NCBI GenBank assembly: GCA_035529395.1
Contig: DATKWT010000110.1
Coordinates: 1 to 40,188, forward strand
Source of the DNA: Dehalococcoidales bacterium
GTDB taxonomy: Bacteria; Chloroflexota; Dehalococcoidia; Dehalococcoidales; Fen-1064
Reading direction: 5' to 3'
DNA: 40,188 nucleotides
Position numbers and translations under genes: made by a program. Shown one piece after another: positions 33,452 to 40,051 of the stretch (position 1 is the first letter of the stretch; every line of letters starts with the position of its first letter). The notes under the pieces were generated by a model that saw only the letters and a program-made list of their open reading frames with translations, made no database searches and was not told the DNA's origin.

Positions 33452-33540
33452 TACTAGCAACCGTGCTGTCGAAGACAGCAACCCTGCTATGTTCGATAGC
33501 AGGCATAATATGGTAAAGGCTGCGAACAGGACTAGTACAC

Positions 33541-33810
33541 TTCCAGCGAGGTTCAGAGAGTCGGGTAAGGTGTGAGCCGATACCGGCGCAGAAGTCGAAT
33601 GGACCTGGGAGCCGCAAACCGAAAGTGGCCGGTCTGAGACCGGGTAACGAGTAGGCTTTGTCGCCGGGGAAGCGTTATCAATCCCAGGGTATCGGGACCA
33701 GCCCCGGTACCTGATTGAGATGGGGCCGACTCCTGACGGGGTCGGGGCCTGTGAATTAGGGTGGCACCGCGGAGATAAACCTCTCGTCCCTTTGGGGATG
33801 GGAGGTTTTG
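33541..33810 (+). promoter_or_regulatory. T-box riboswitch, tryptophan-specific
   Basis: A complete T-box leader. The start has the AGAGAG of stem I and GGTGTGAG of the distal part. The conserved T-box AGGGTGGCACCGCGG is at 33758-33772 and is followed by the terminator hairpin. The specifier is TGG at 33600-33602, in the context CGAA-TGG-ACC, which aligns with the CGAAA-ATC-CC specifier of the ileS leader in this same window. It should bind uncharged tRNA-Trp and then let transcription run into trpB2. Confidence 0.93.
33777..33808 (+). terminator. T-box terminator ahead of trpB2
   Basis: AAACCTCTCGTCCC (33777-33790) pairs with GGGATGGGAGGTTT (33795-33808) over 14 base pairs, two of them G-U, with a TTTG loop; a T-rich stretch follows. 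The CCGCGG of the T-box would compete with this stem as antiterminator. Confidence 0.88.
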
Positions 33811-33850
33811 AATTTCCTGTAAGTGACAGGAACCAAGAGGAGGTGACGAT

Positions 33851-33895
33851 TTGCTGATAAAATCACTACGCTGGCCCTGCGGGGCCAAATTATAG
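33851..33895 (+). CDS. Putative 14-residue leader peptide with one Trp codon
   Basis: AGAGGAGGTGA (33836-33846), the strongest ribosome-binding site in the window, is followed seven bases later by TTG, opening MLIKSLRWPCGAKL and then TAG. It lies after the T-box terminator and before trpB2. Its Trp codon is in the left arm of a two-part hairpin (33862-33899). A strong ribosome site for such a short frame suggests a regulatory leader peptide, but the TTG start and the lack of a U-run leave doubt. Confidence 0.35.
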   Translation: MLIKSLRWPCGAKL

Positions 33896-33899
33896 TGAT
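33862..33899 (+). promoter_or_regulatory. Two-part hairpin in the trpB2 leader
   Basis: ATCACTA (33862-33868) pairs with TAGTGAT (33893-33899), and inside it TGGCCC (33872-33877) pairs with GGGCCA (33882-33887) around TGCG. The structure covers the Trp codon and stop of the putative leader peptide and ends about 45 bases before the trpB2 start. It is not part of the T-box. Confidence 0.6.
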
Positions 33900-33945
33900 A
33901 TGTGGTTGATATTGAAATTACCTGGAATATCTGAAAGGAGAGAAA

Positions 33946-35310
33946 ATGGATAGAGCGAAGTTTATTCTTGATGAAAAGGACATGCCGACTGCCTGGTATA
34001 ACATCCAGGCGGACCTGCCCGAGCCGCTTCCGCCACTTCTGCATCCAGCCACCAAGGAACCCACGATTCTTCCACCACCACTTTTCGTTGAAGCCCTGAA
34101 CGAACAGGAGTTCAGCACGGAGCGTTGGATTGACGTCCCGGAAGAGGTGCAGGAAATCTACCGTACCTGGAGACCGACCATCCTGCACCGGGCACACCGC
34201 CTGGAGAAAGCGCTGGATACCCCGGCCAAGATATTCTACAAGTATGAGGGTACCAGCCAGGGCGGGAGCCACAAGCCGAACACGGCAGTTGCCCAGGCAT
34301 ACTACAATAAGCAGGCGGGAGTTAAGCGTATAGCCACCGAGACCGGGGCCGGGCAGTGGGGCAGTGCGCTATCGATGGGCTGCATGTTCTTCGGCCTGGA
34401 ACTCAAGGTCTACATGGTCAGGATCAGCTACAACCAGAAGCCCTACCGCCGCATACTGATGGAGACCTGGGGGGCCACCTGCGTCGCCAGCCCCAGCGAA
34501 GATACCAATATCGGGCGCACCATCCTCGGGCAAGACCCGGATTCCCCGGGCAGCCTCGGTATGGCCATTAGTGAAGCGGTAGAGGATGCCGCCACCCATG
34601 ATGATACCAGGTACTCGCTGGGCAGCGTGCTCAACCACGTGCTGCTTCACAACACAATCAATGGTCTGGAGACAAAGAAGCTGATGGAGGAGCAGACAGA
34701 CACCTACCCCGATATTATTGTCGGTTGCGTTGGTGGCGGCTCTAACTTTGCCGGAATGTTCCTGCCATTTGTCAAGGACAAGATCGATGGTACCAGACCG
34801 GACCTGCGCATTATCTGCGTAGAGCCGACCAGTTGTCCCACGTTGACCAAGGGGCCCCTGGCCTGGGACTTCGGAGATGTTGCCGGTATGGCCCCGATAG
34901 CCTTCATGAATACCCTGGGACATGGCTTTATACCACCTCCAGTCCACGCCGGTGGCCTTCGCTATCACGGCATGGCACCCATCATCTGCCACCTGGTGAA
35001 GCTCGGTCTGGTTGAAGCCACGGCAGTGCCACAGATGGCCACCTTCGAGGCCGGGGTGACTTTTGCCCGAACCGAAGGCATCCTTTCCGCACCCGAGACC
35101 AACCATGCCATCAGGGTAACGATTGACGAAGCCCTGAAATGCAAGCAGACCGGCGAGTCAAAGACCATCCTGCTGGCCCATAGCGGACATGGTCATTTCG
35201 ACCTGGCGGCTTATGATGCCTATCTATCAGGCAAGCTTGAGGACTATGACTACCCCGAGGAGAAGGTCAAGGAAGCGCTTGCCTCACTACCACAGGTAGA
35301 CCGGCAGTAG
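33946..35310 (+). CDS. trpB: Tryptophan synthase beta chain-like protein, TrpB2 type
   Basis: A 454-residue TrpB-like enzyme of the longer TrpB2 group. The pyridoxal-phosphate lysine is K110 in [14 protein letters not shown], and the glycine-rich phosphate loop is [12 protein letters not shown]. The extended N-terminus with [20 protein letters not shown] and the C-terminal [19 protein letters not shown] are typical of TrpB2. It should make tryptophan from indole and serine. No trpA follows, as is common for TrpB2, which often salvages free indole. The ATG at 33946 has AAAGGAGAG upstream. Expression is under the Trp T-box, which strengthens the tryptophan assignment, and a good terminator follows the gene. 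Confidence 0.94.
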
Positions 35311-35498: not shown

Positions 35499-36632
35499 AT
35501 GAAACTCAGGCATTTGGTCCTCTCAATTGCGCTTGTCGTGTCGTTGCTTTTTACCCTCGGTTGTGATCTGATACCGGAGCTGGAATCGTCAGAACCGCAG
35601 GAACCACCCGCTACCATAAAAGTTGAAGAGGAAGAGGTAAATCCCATAAACCCTGATTGGGAGGTATCCTCTTCAGGCGACCAATCAGAAGCGCTGCCCA
35701 GCATTGCCGATGTTGTTGCCAGGGTCAAACCGTCAGTGGTTGCTATTACCGTTGAGGTAGTGAGCCTTGATGTTTTTAATCGGCAGTACACCCAGGAGGG
35801 CGGCGGTTCGGGCTGGATTATCGATGAAAGCGGCATTATCGTGACGAACGCCCACGTTGTCAGCGGCGCGATAAATATCACGGTAACCCTGGATGACGAA
35901 AGGGTAATTCCGGTGGATATTACTACTGTGGCCATGGACCCGCAGACGGACCTGGCTGTACTCAAGATAGACGCCGGGAAGCTGCCTGCGGTGGCCGTGG
36001 GTGATTCTGACGAACTGAGAGTTGGTGACTGGGTAATCGCCATCGGCAATTCTCTGGGCTTTGGTATAAGGGCAACCCTCGGAATCGTCAGCCAGAACGA
36101 TGTTGCCGTTAACGAAGAGCTGGGCCAACCGCTCAGGTTAATAGAGACCGATGCGGCCATCAATCCCGGCAACAGCGGGGGGCCGCTGGTGAACGTGGCC
36201 GGTGAGGTGATTGGCATCAATAGCGCCAAAATCCAGGCGGTTGAGGTAGAAGGCGTTGGTTGGGCAATCGCCAGCACCGATGCCCTTCCCATCATCCAGA
36301 GCCTGATCAAGATGGGCTACGTTGTCCGCCCATGGCTCGGTGTGGGCACCCAGACTGTCAATCCCACCACCGCCTTCTGGCAGCGGCTACCCGTTGATAC
36401 CGGGGTGCTGATAACCAACGTGGCCGCGGACAGCCCGGCTGACCGGGCGGGACTCGAGGATGGAGATGTCGTCGTCAGCTTCAATGGTGTCCAGGTGACC
36501 ACCGCCTACGAGATGGTCACCGGTATACACGCCACGGAGGTCGGACAGACGATAGAGATAGTCTACTGGCGGGGTGACCAGAAGCAGACCACACAGGCAA
36601 CTCTGGTGGAGAGTCCCCCGCCCGAGGGCTAA
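35499..36632 (+). CDS. HtrA/DegP-like serine protease with one PDZ domain, probable lipoprotein
   Basis: A 377-residue exported protease. The hydrophobic N-terminus ends in LFTLGC with Cys22 as the likely lipid anchor, and an acidic, proline-rich linker follows. The trypsin-like domain has all three catalytic residues: His119 in TNAHVV, Asp151 in DPQTDLAVLK and Ser226 in NPGNSGGPLV. One PDZ domain closes the protein (about 270-370; PWLGVGTQ, DSPADRAGLEDGDVVVSFNG). It should degrade or hold misfolded proteins outside the membrane. The ATG at 35499 is chosen because GGTGGTGAT is a few bases upstream and the promoter places the transcript start just before it; in-frame ATGs at 35484 and 35493 are alternatives. 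Its stop codon overlaps that of ileS on the opposite strand. Confidence 0.95.
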   Translation: MKLRHLVLSIALVVSLLFTLGCDLIPELESSEPQEPPATIKVEEEEVNPINPDWEVSSSGDQSEALPSIADVVARVKPSVVAITVEVVSLDVFNRQYTQEGGGSGWIIDESGIIVTNAHVVSGAINITVTLDDERVIPVDITTVAMDPQTDLAVLKIDAGKLPAVAVGDSDELRVGDWVIAIGNSLGFGIRATLGIVSQNDVAVNEELGQPLRLIETDAAINPGNSGGPLVNVAGEVIGINSAKIQAVEVEGVGWAIASTDALPIIQSLIKMGYVVRPWLGVGTQTVNPTTAFWQRLPVDTGVLITNVAADSPADRAGLEDGDVVVSFNGVQVTTAYEMVTGIHATEVGQTIEIVYWRGDQKQTTQATLVESPPPEG

Positions 36633-39600
36633 GCCTCACGCCTCACTCCCAGTTTGATATCATGCCCGACCAGCTTGTAGCTCGCGGTAAAAGCATCCGT
36701 CTCCGGCACTCCCTCAGCAAGTTGTCGTGACAGCGTTTCCTGCCTGATGTAGTCGGCCCAGTCCTCCATAACCTGCCTGATATAAGTATCACCTTCGTAG
36801 AAGGTGGTGATGTGGTCCGCGATATTGAAACCGGCTGAGCGACGCATTGTCTGGAGCCGGTGCACCACCTCCCGCGCCATGCCTTCTGCGGCCAACTCCG
36901 GGGGAATGTCTATGGTTATGCCTGTAGAACCAGCTGCTTCGACTTTCACTTCATAAAGACCCTGTGCAGCCTTCGTGTCTATTACATCCGGAGCTTCGCG
37001 AATAATATCCTTTACGTTCAACTCCTCCATTATCTGTAGCTTGACTCTATCCAGGTCGCTCTGACTCTTTATGAGAGTAGTTGATGCCATCGCCAGAGGT
37101 TGTCGTACCTTGATGCCGGCCTGACTGCGGGCTGCCCGTCCCTGGTTGCTCACCTTCATCGCCAGGCGCGTAACCTCCGATAGCTTCCCGTCTATCAGCG
37201 TCTCGTCGGCAATTGGGAAGTCGGCCAGGTGCACGCTGTCCGGGGCTTCCGGAAAGACGGAACAGACCAGGTTCTGGTATAGCTCCTCGGCGAGGAACGG
37301 TGTGAACGGCGCCATTAGCCTGGACAATGTCCCCAGGCACTCGTAGAGTGTGTTATAAGCGGCCAGCTTATCAGCGTCATTCTCACTCTTCCAGAACCGT
37401 CTCCGGCTGCGGCGCACATACCAGTTGGACAGGACATTAACGAAGTCCTCTATCTTGCGTCCTGCTCCGGTCGGGTCGTAGTCATCAAGACCGGCATCGA
37501 CGTCCCTGACGAGCTGATTAAGCTCGGAGAGTATCCATCGGTCAAGCTCCGAATATTCCAGCAGCGTGTTATCGTGTCCGGGGGTGAACTCGTCTATGTT
37601 AGCGTAGGTAATGAAAAAGGAGTAGACATTCCAGAGGGTCATCAGGAGACGCCGCGATATCTCAGTGAGCAGACCTTCGTCAAATCGCATGGAGTTCCCC
37701 ACGGGTACGGACGTGAAAAAGGACCACCGCAGAGCGTCGGCACCGAACTTATTGATTACGGCCCACGGGTCAACGATATTCCCCTTGCTCTTGCTCATCT
37801 TCTCGCCTTTAGCGTCCAGGATATGACCGTGGCAGATAACATTGCGATAACAGGGCCGGTCGAAGAGAAGGGTGGAAATGGCGTGCAGGCTGTAGAACCA
37901 TCCGCGCGTCTGGTCGATAGCCTCGCAGATATAGTCGGCCGGAAAGCGCCCGTCTTCCAGTAGGGTTTCATTCTCAAATGGGTAGTGGTCCTGGGCCAGT
38001 GGCATTGCCCCGGAGTCGAACCAGCAATCGATTACCTCCGGTACCCGCCGCATCTCACCACCACATTCGGTGCACTTAAGCGTTATCCCGTCAACGAAGG
38101 GACGGTGCAGGTCCAGGGGTTCCTCCAGTCCGGTGGCGCCCATTTCTCCCAGCTCGCTAACACTACCAACACATTCGAACTTGCCGCAGGACGGGCACTG
38201 CCAGACCGGAAGGGGAGTCCCCCAGTAGCGCTCCCGTGAGAATGCCCAGTCGACATTGTTCTTCAGCCAGTCCCCGAAACGGCCGTACTTGATATGCTCC
38301 GGGTACCAGTTTATCTCGTCATTACCCCTCAGAAGACTGTCCTTAACGGTGGTAGTCCTGATGTACCAGGTCTGCTTGGCGTAGTAGAGCAGGGGGGCAT
38401 CACAGCGCCAGCAGAACGGGTAAGTGTGCAGGACTGACTCGCTGCGAAAGAGCAGCCCTCTCTTCTCAAGGTCATCCAGCACCAGCGGGTCGGCGTCTTT
38501 GACGAACCTGCCCGAGAAGGGATAGTTGCCGCTGATATTACCCTGGAGGTCGACGTGATGGACGAAATCGAGGTCGTTGTCCTGCCCGGCCTGGTAGTCG
38601 ACTTCGCCGTAGGCGGGAGCGACATGGACAATGCCGGTACCCTCTTCCATAGAGACGAAGTCAGTGGCAATCACGCGGTAGGTCAGGTTATCGTCCGGCT
38701 CCTGCACAGGCAGTTCAGAACGCTCCTGGAAACGCTGTCGCTCCACGTTGAATGAGTCTGGATTGAAAAGCGGTTCGTATCTCACACCGGCCAGCTCTTT
38801 CCCCTGGAAAGTCCCTGCCACCGTGCGGTCACCCAGACCTGTCACCAGTAACAGCGCTGATGCCATAATCAGGTACTCACCGTCAACCTCAACGACCGCG
38901 TATTCATCATCAGGGGCTACAGCCAGGGCAGTGTTACCCGGCAATGTCCAGGGAGTGGTTGTCCAGGCCAGGAGGTAGGTCTTCTCTTGGCCAACCAGGT
39001 CTCGCAGTCTCTCCGGAAGCTCGTCGCCCGAAGGGACGATTCTGAACTTGATGTACACCGAGGGGTCTTCGGTGTTTTCCTTGTAGCCCTGGGCGACCTC
39101 ATGGGAGCTGAGCGACGTACCACAGCGCGGGCAGTGGGGTGTGACTCTATAGCCCTGGTAGACCAGACCCTTGTCCCACATCTGTTTTATCGCCCACCAG
39201 ACGGACTCAATGTAGTTGTTGTCCATGGTCACGTAGGCATGCTCCATGTCGGTCCAGTATGCGATGCGCTCAGTCAGGTCTTCAAACTCCTTGATATAGA
39301 GGGAGACGCTCTCGCGGCAGCGGTCATTGAATCGCTCGATGCCGTACTCCTCAATATCTGCCTTACCGGAGAAGCCAAGTTCCTTCTCTACCTCCAGCTC
39401 TACCGGCAGGCCGTGCGTGTCCCAGCCTCCAATTCGCGGAACGTAGTAGCCTTTCATTGTCTTGTAGCGGGGGATAATGTCTTTAAGGACACGGGGCATT
39501 ACCCAACTAACGCCAGGCTTGCCGTTGGTGGTGGGTGGGCCTTCATACAGGACGAAACGGGGGCCGTTCCGGCGTTCATCAACACTCCTGATGAACGTAT

Positions 39601-39676
39601 TATTCTTCCGCCACAGGTCGAGTATTCTCTCCTCCACCTGTGGGAAACTCACCCTGCTGCTCACCGGTTGAAACAT
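36629..39676 (-). CDS. ileS: Isoleucyl-tRNA synthetase, type-2-like, with an altered HIGH motif
   Basis: A 1015-residue class I synthetase that charges tRNA-Ile. GWDTHGLPVE (84-93), the editing-domain segments TTPWTLPGN (240-248) and HVAPAYGEVDY, the KMSKS loop at 626-630, zinc-type CPRCG, CPSCG and CTECG motifs and DCWFDSGAMP are all present. The first signature, normally H-I-G-H or in type-2 enzymes G-I-H-H, reads G-V-S-W (55-58) in NGKPGVSWVMPRVLKD, so no histidine remains in the motif. The ATG at 39674-39676 is chosen since GGGGGTGAT lies just before it; the in-frame GTG in that site is less likely. Type-2 enzymes are commonly mupirocin-resistant. A T-box leader controls it, and the 3' end overlaps htrA by four bases. 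Confidence 0.95.
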   Translation of the reverse strand: MFQPVSSRVSFPQVEERILDLWRKNNTFIRSVDERRNGPRFVLYEGPPTTNGKPGVSWVMPRVLKDIIPRYKTMKGYYVPRIGGWDTHGLPVELEVEKELGFSGKADIEEYGIERFNDRCRESVSLYIKEFEDLTERIAYWTDMEHAYVTMDNNYIESVWWAIKQMWDKGLVYQGYRVTPHCPRCGTSLSSHEVAQGYKENTEDPSVYIKFRIVPSGDELPERLRDLVGQEKTYLLAWTTTPWTLPGNTALAVAPDDEYAVVEVDGEYLIMASALLLVTGLGDRTVAGTFQGKELAGVRYEPLFNPDSFNVERQRFQERSELPVQEPDDNLTYRVIATDFVSMEEGTGIVHVAPAYGEVDYQAGQDNDLDFVHHVDLQGNISGNYPFSGRFVKDADPLVLDDLEKRGLLFRSESVLHTYPFCWRCDAPLLYYAKQTWYIRTTTVKDSLLRGNDEINWYPEHIKYGRFGDWLKNNVDWAFSRERYWGTPLPVWQCPSCGKFECVGSVSELGEMGATGLEEPLDLHRPFVDGITLKCTECGGEMRRVPEVIDCWFDSGAMPLAQDHYPFENETLLEDGRFPADYICEAIDQTRGWFYSLHAISTLLFDRPCYRNVICHGHILDAKGEKMSKSKGNIVDPWAVINKFGADALRWSFFTSVPVGNSMRFDEGLLTEISRRLLMTLWNVYSFFITYANIDEFTPGHDNTLLEYSELDRWILSELNQLVRDVDAGLDDYDPTGAGRKIEDFVNVLSNWYVRRSRRRFWKSENDADKLAAYNTLYECLGTLSRLMAPFTPFLAEELYQNLVCSVFPEAPDSVHLADFPIADETLIDGKLSEVTRLAMKVSNQGRAARSQAGIKVRQPLAMASTTLIKSQSDLDRVKLQIMEELNVKDIIREAPDVIDTKAAQGLYEVKVEAAGSTGITIDIPPELAAEGMAREVVHRLQTMRRSAGFNIADHITTFYEGDTYIRQVMEDWADYIRQETLSRQLAEGVPETDAFTASYKLVGHDIKLGVRREA

Positions 39677-39701
39677 GGCTATCACCCCCTATAAAGAAAA
39701 T

Positions 39702-39723
39702 ATCCCGCCCCAAGGGACGGGAT
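39702..39723 (-). terminator. T-box terminator ahead of ileS
   Basis: Read on the - strand, ATCCCGTCCC pairs with GGGGCGGGAT across a TT loop, giving ten base pairs with one G-U, followed by ATTTTC. In + coordinates the arms are 39714-39723 and 39702-39711. Confidence 0.88.
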
Positions 39724-39965
39724 TAATTATAACCCGCGGTACCACCCTACTTCTCCGGGAATAGGCCGGAGCACTTATCCAGGGTACGTATTCATACCCC
39801 CGTCAGGGATAACGGCTGACGACTCCGGCCAAGTCTACACAACTACCAGCTTCGCTGGTGGCCTTCGGTTGGCAGCTCGGGAGGGATTTTCGGAAAGCCG
39901 GCTACGTCTGCTCGCACCATACCAGACTCGCTGGGTACCGGTGTCTCTCCTACTCTTCTCCGTCA
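39702..39965 (-). promoter_or_regulatory. T-box riboswitch, isoleucine-specific
   Basis: The conserved T-box AGGGTGGTACCGCGG is the complement of 39734-39748 and is followed by the terminator. Stem I begins with AGGAGAGACACC. The specifier is ATC (complement of 39885-39887) in the context CCGAAA-ATC-CC, an isoleucine codon, which agrees with the downstream gene. Uncharged tRNA-Ile should switch on ileS. Confidence 0.94.
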
Positions 39966-40051
39966 ACGCACTTACACTTCAAAGGTTAACACGTTATGGA
40001 AAACAAAGCAAGTGAAGGGACATTCCATGAACCTGTTTTATTGCCGTAAAG

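Follow-up and report, generated by a model that had tools for sequence, protein, structure and literature searches.

Why should a tryptophan gene that lies behind a Trp T-box carry, between the T-box terminator and its own start codon, a second short reading frame with a Trp codon and a hairpin? The question is raised by the leader of trpB2 in a Dehalococcoidales bacterium (assembly of 2.36 Mb in 191 contigs), within a window on contig C110 that comprises the whole 40,188 nt stretch of DNA analysed here. From 5′ to 3′ the leader consists of the Trp T-box, a terminator, a small hairpin, a Shine-Dalgarno (SD) sequence, a TTG start codon, the frame MLIKSLRWPCGAKL with its stop codon, a hairpin, and 50 nt leading to trpB2:

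33513–33794, plus strand: T-box leader with specifier UGG (GAA-UGG-ACC), i.e. for tRNA-Trp; Rfam RF00230, specifier from sequence and alignment.
33780–33809, plus strand: intrinsic terminator hairpin of the T-box with a short T run; from sequence.
33814–33832, plus strand: small hairpin of 6 bp, TTCCTG/CAGGAA, separating terminator and leader frame (uORF); from sequence and relatives.
33838–33846, plus strand: SD of the leader peptide, AGGAGGTGA; from sequence, a 9-nt SD match.
33851–33895, plus strand: leader-peptide frame, with TTG start at 33851–33853, 14 sense codons and TAG stop at 33893–33895, the Trp codon TGG being codon 8 (33872–33874); from sequence, frame conservation and covariance model R1.
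33872–33887, plus strand: conserved hairpin TGGCCC-TGCG-GGGCCA, its 5′ arm beginning at the Trp codon (inner stem TGGCCC 33872–33877 with GGGCCA 33882–33887, loop TGCG); from folding and alignment.
33862–33899, plus strand: genus-specific outer stem of 7 bp that extends the hairpin (ATCACTA 33862–33868 with TAGTGAT 33893–33899); from folding and relatives.
33935–33940, plus strand: SD of trpB2, AAGGAG, 39 nt past the uORF stop; from sequence and accessibility prediction.
33946–35310, plus strand: trpB2, a TrpB-like PLP enzyme of 454 aa; NCBIfam TIGR01415 (604.6 bits) and NF009057, Pfam PF00291.

The match of the T-box leader to RF00230 scored 93.2 bits against a gathering score of 93 and spans the full model (positions 1–219 of 219); the specifier UGG, the UGGN bulge, present as GGGUGGCACCGCG, and the terminator at 33780–33809 complete the assignment. 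Since the specifiers of the relatives' T-boxes could not be typed by regular expression, a Trp specifier is claimed for the T-box of the window alone. A second T-box on the minus strand (39710–39975) leads straight into an ileS-like gene (36629–39685) and is ordinary. The strong SD, the 14-codon TTG frame and the single Trp codon that an initial annotation had placed after the T-box are all present (33838–33895), and model R1 matches positions 33836–33891 with E = 9e-7. The small hairpin TTCCTG/CAGGAA is weakened or altered in the congeners L003 and L004.

Among 127 trpB2 upstream regions from relatives of the order, a script recovered 43 with a short frame that follows an SD and has its Trp codon at the base of a GC hairpin, the spurious L050 being left out; Trp frames read by hand (L020, L047, L080, L114 and L126) bring the regions with an SD-preceded Trp-codon frame to about 48 of 127. 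The same arrangement is repeated across dozens of genera, an SD-like purine run occupies the leader-peptide position in nearly every relative, and the module turned up in further orders of the class too when 393 Dehalococcoidia genomes were searched with a covariance model. The encoded peptides vary (MTKLSRYWPGGP, MAKRARYWPGGAVK, MFTISRRWPRWGP, MITSGHYWPAGANI, MRLAVKTWPFGA, MVILKKSWPGGADN and MQLWRWPAGAKIN, each followed by a stop codon). Trp, with about seven codons upstream of it, is their only constant residue; it is codon 8 in about three quarters of the leaders and codon 6, 7 or 9 in the others, and several relatives have two or more Trp codons (e.g. MFTMSWQWP, MTWRWRC).

When hairpins were located first and an SD with a start codon was then sought, this start and the Trp codon shared one frame in 41 of 43 cases, where one third would be expected; the loci are related, hence no exact p-value is claimed for this count. 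The two exceptions are L003, for which the wrong start was chosen, and L059, which has a broken frame and lies in a leader without a T-box. Despite loss of the hairpin, the Trp codon is retained in L020 (MVTATRYWRM, then stop), L114 (beginning MTTMSWHWRSL) and L126 (MAATDKMWRGLDK, then stop). Between the sisters L110 and L114, 5 of the 18 nt that make up codons 2–7 are different, yet the encoded amino acids are identical. Over twelve disjoint pairs, 14, 12 and 17 differences were counted at codon positions 1, 2 and 3; this third-position excess is small, and the claim therefore rests on frame conservation and not on codon bias. From this conservation we infer that the leader frame is translated. 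As a side observation, the hairpin-less L020, L114 and L126, which belong to different genera, all read TGG-CGA, and the trpX leader L298 has TGG CGA TGG CGA plus a new stem.

The 55-nt hairpin piece folds at −19.4 kcal/mol (z = −2.96), with 1 of 200 shuffles equally good, and folding of the whole stretch gave z = −2.74. Both stems of the two-stem hairpin proposed in the initial annotation are paired in the window, and the inner one (UGGCCC/GGGCCR) is kept in relatives; the outer 7-bp stem, however, is already mismatched in the congener L003 (TATTGAT) and is missing in other genera. In the R1 alignment of 57 loci, which was itself fitted to this structure, 97.7% of the six inner-helix pairs are standard, compared with 59–65% when the partner is shifted by one column. 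Compensated stems, for which the initial annotation had proposed to compare relatives, do exist in L128 (GGCGC/GCGCC) and L298 (GCGAT/ATCGC), both outside the 57-locus alignment, whereas covariation in the core stem is weak (17 of 500 shuffles score as high) because its letters are nearly invariant over the 57 loci. Such invariance exceeds the needs of a simple hairpin and may reflect a constraint on the sequence itself. The reading frame that passes through the 3′ arm differs among relatives (WPxGA, WPxxG and WPGGP, giving GA, RG and GP), and the stop codon lies before or inside this arm in L178 (MAKKSRMWP), L154 (MTPISWIWP), L110 and L128; therefore, the hairpin is probably selected as RNA. 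Trp codon and hairpin are apparently both under selection, for different reasons. The idea of a leader peptide was to be dropped if neither frame nor stems were conserved in relatives, and the comparison found the Trp-codon frame and the inner hairpin conserved.

Is the hairpin perhaps the functional element, as a 5′ stabiliser of the mRNA, a pause hairpin for RNA polymerase or a protein site, with the Trp frame incidental to it? Its near-invariant letters across the class and its persistence past the stop codon in L178, L154 and L128 would fit. We nevertheless regard this as unlikely, given the frame maintained in 41 of 43 leaders, the Trp codon kept by three lineages after the hairpin was lost and the synonymous differences between L110 and L114.

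The distribution of the module follows particular genes. Of the 127 trpB2 upstream regions, 44 have both T-box and frame, 30 a T-box only, 4 the frame only (L005, L006, L009 and L038, where cmscan finds no T-box) and 49 neither. The module is thus present in 44 of the 74 trpB2 leaders that have a T-box, compared with 4 of the 53 that lack one, L046 being counted as a T-box leader on separate T-box evidence. No such frame was found in the 16 trpB2 leaders directly behind trpA. The module also follows T-boxes of genes for ABC substrate-binding proteins, whose best NCBIfam match is TrpX (240 and 249 bits, under the model cut-off of 390). Six of seven such trpX upstream regions with a T-box have the WP hairpin frame, and the seventh, L298, combines a T-box with MTWRWRC, a stop codon and a different stem. 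In the same genomes, the T-boxes ahead of trpE operons and of ileS run straight to their gene and no such frame was found behind them, in line with the earlier statement that this is the normal layout of T-box leaders; the module is therefore not a by-product of T-boxes generally and belongs to trpB2 and trpX. Across the genomes compared, the Trp-codon frame with its overlapping GC hairpin is a conserved module behind the T-boxes of trpB2 and of genes for a TrpX-like tryptophan importer in Dehalococcoidia. In a scan of 85k species for a T-box plus hairpin, the matches listed were mostly chance occurrences in GC-rich genomes, and every real tandem case among them came from a Dehalococcoidia or Chloroflexota record. 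A phylum-wide search with the model gave weak matches beyond the class (best E 0.0014).

Two observations concern individual trpX-type or truncated loci. The long spacers between uORF and trpX in L133, L294 and L296 contain a repeat-like piece (beginning TTCGACAAGCTCACCACGAGCGG). L323 (G007:C140:1-300) has a T-box and MTVQARYWPPAGANELRIN with its stop codon at a contig end, the downstream gene being cut off; the trpB2 of the same genome (C74) has no T-box in the 178 nt upstream.

How, then, could the module act on the gene? An effect of the hairpin on trpB2 initiation, as originally proposed, was not borne out. Over 41 leaders the predicted accessibility of the trpB2 SD, computed from secondary structure only, was 0.53 with no ribosome, 0.55 with a stalled and 0.54 with a terminating ribosome, and this constancy across the three states speaks against an SD-sequestration switch of the erm type. 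The distance from stop to start is 50 nt in the window, 28–115 nt in trpB2 relatives and roughly 60–300 nt before trpX, i.e. too long for occlusion and too variable for translational coupling or reinitiation.

These distances bear directly on an output like that of rtpLP, in which, with Trp-tRNA plentiful, a ribosome at the leader stop would hinder initiation at the main gene and a stall at the Trp codon would relieve it. The order of the parts, a Trp T-box and then a short Trp-codon frame (probably translated, judging from frame conservation), matches Bacillus subtilis rtpA, and the mechanism would be feasible in a few leaders with short spacers of 28–32 nt (L038, L045, L103 and L032). A terminating ribosome covers about 15 nt downstream, however, and the stop in the window lies 39 nt from the SD of the gene and not beside it; with the longer spacers of the other leaders, an output of this kind appears improbable to us.

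Little credence is likewise given to classical or translational attenuation, by which a stall at the Trp codon would favour an alternative structure that blocks a terminator or exposes the SD of trpB2. The position of the 5′ arm at the Trp codon does recall the 1:2 hairpin of trp leaders. Yet no second terminator was found between uORF and gene, structure in the spacers is not in excess over shuffles (mean z 0.07), and the released 3′ arm pairs downstream to the same extent as in shuffles (0.59 versus 0.58); the SD, as stated, is insensitive to the ribosome. A transcription attenuator of the trpL type, with an antiterminator/terminator pair and poly-U, was rejected on these grounds, the spacer being unstructured and A-rich (48% A, 11% C). 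A C-rich Rho site was rejected as well, as the spacers are C-poor and not rut-like; a rho gene is present in the genome, and Rho polarity may play a part. A peptide acting in trans does not agree with Trp being the one constant residue of the N-terminal part. An arrest peptide sensing free Trp, like TnaC, was discarded because neither the residues of the nascent chain nor their spacing are conserved: the stop codons are TAA, TAG or TGA, 1 to more than 10 residues past Trp, and Pro can be replaced by Arg or Ala. Finally, the inverted repeat TGGCCC-N-GGGCCA could be read as a DNA operator for a repressor forming a roadblock after the T-box, its letters being palindromic and nearly invariant, but the spacing of the half-sites varies (loops of 3 to about 8 nt), unlike in a dimer operator, and the reading frame is left unexplained, which makes this very improbable.

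The explanation we favour, and consider probable, is a second sensor layer after the T-box, formed by a leader peptide whose translation stalls under shortage of Trp-tRNA. Binding of uncharged tRNA-Trp to the T-box would let RNA polymerase read past the terminator; on the read-through transcript a ribosome would initiate at the strong SD and, about seven codons on, meet the Trp codon. With Trp-tRNA scarce it would stall there, covering and melting the hairpin; with Trp-tRNA plentiful it would continue, terminate and depart, and the hairpin would fold. According to established footprint sizes, a ribosome whose A site holds the Trp codon spans both hairpin arms, and therefore stall and hairpin should be mutually exclusive. 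The suggestion that a pausing ribosome alters the hairpin is thus physically sensible, although no sign of control over trpB2 initiation was seen. The stall would be a second report of shortage that raises expression of the gene. Its output is the least certain step: it would not be at initiation on the gene's own start codon, and because neither a terminator nor an SD switch nor a fixed spacing was seen, we propose that the stalled ribosome or the melted hairpin acts on the whole message, through mRNA stability or transcription elongation. The outputs that remain independent of distance are mRNA stability and pausing or coupling of RNA polymerase; with low confidence, we favour the former. 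Against Trp sensing, the single Trp codon common to the leaders would be a weak sensor by textbook standards. The module is missing from 30 leaders that keep their T-box and is, on this comparison, not essential.

Derived forms of the leader occur in addition. Upstream of trpB2, an SD with a frame of one or two codons (M, MF, ML, MN or MT, then stop) may replace the Trp frame; this is the case in 14 of 23 leaders that have an SD-preceded start without a scripted hairpin match, compared with 12% by chance, a count that includes the possibly spurious L011. The distribution is clade-structured, with L094, L095, L096, L098, L102 and L115 in g53 (at a guess, a Dehalogenimonas-like genus), L060, L075, L082 and L088 in g66, and L031, L052 and L105 besides. 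These minimal frames suggest a role for the landing and leaving of the ribosome beyond Trp sensing. In L017, which has no T-box, the leader frame (69 nt before trpB2) has lost its Trp codon and is continuous, in frame, with trpB2 (MSNILRQPLTGANTRKQKIEGGT-MERTKF...), an arrangement suggestive of a uORF turning into an N-terminal extension. The T-box-less leaders of g24 (L009, L086, L062 and L129) have a promoter-like TTGACA-N16/17-TAATAAT at or before the uORF start, and their frame would therefore be leaderless or untranscribed.

The closest known system is the rtpA leader, a tandem of Trp T-box and leader peptide rtpLP (Chen and Yanofsky 2003, 2004, as cited in PMC11255114). Both have a Trp T-box terminator and then a short Trp-codon frame, with the same tRNA sensed twice in series; the present case differs in its phylum, in its genes (trpB2 and trpX-like) and in the conserved GGCCC hairpin at the Trp codon. 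The leader stop of rtpA is next to the SD of the gene, whereas here 28 to about 300 nt separate the stop from the gene. Three Trp codons are carried by rtpLP, here usually one is constant. To our knowledge, rtpA in Bacillus is the single system with tandem sensing of one tRNA by RNA binding and translation. The B. subtilis rtpA (anti-TRAP) leader is reportedly the subject of Chen and Yanofsky's papers in Science 301:211 (2003) and Mol Cell 13:703 (2004).

Trp-related T-boxes at trpE and a trpB-like gene were reported for two Dehalococcoides strains by Wels et al. 2008 (PMC2494555), whose text does not contain the term 'leader peptide' and thus leaves undescribed the frame and hairpin that follow the T-box; in the Dehalococcoides-like genomes of our comparison the short frame reads MNWG or MDWG, then stop. 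The trp attenuators of Corynebacterium and Streptomyces (PMC1262725) have a leader peptide with UGG codons and a GC-rich hairpin nearby, but their double or triple UGG and their antiterminator/terminator pair with poly-U are not the rule here, where a T-box precedes. In Mycobacterium tuberculosis, an M-box riboswitch likewise precedes and controls a small uORF that is conserved (PMC12810186); it differs in sensing Mg2+ and in being a translational platform where termination is Rho-dependent. The literature searched, which covered few subscription papers, contained no account of a leader peptide following the Dehalococcoidia T-boxes considered here. T-boxes at these genes and the tandem of T-box and leader peptide were thus already known, and the Dehalococcoidia module appears to be new.

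The module would place a tandem sensor in another phylum, as a class-wide arrangement ahead of two different tryptophan genes. It is kept or lost independently of the T-box, so that each of its gains or losses may serve as an experiment done by nature. A near-invariant hairpin combined with free spacing mismatches the textbook outputs of leader peptides. Tentatively, and with rather less conviction than for the leader peptide itself, this may point to a new type of output, in which a stall at a single Trp codon acts via a sequence-specific UGGCCC hairpin regardless of the distance to the gene and without terminator or SD sequestration, e.g. by starvation-dependent stabilisation of the mRNA; stacked on the T-box, it would set a second threshold for trpB2 and Trp uptake, and not for the trpE operon.
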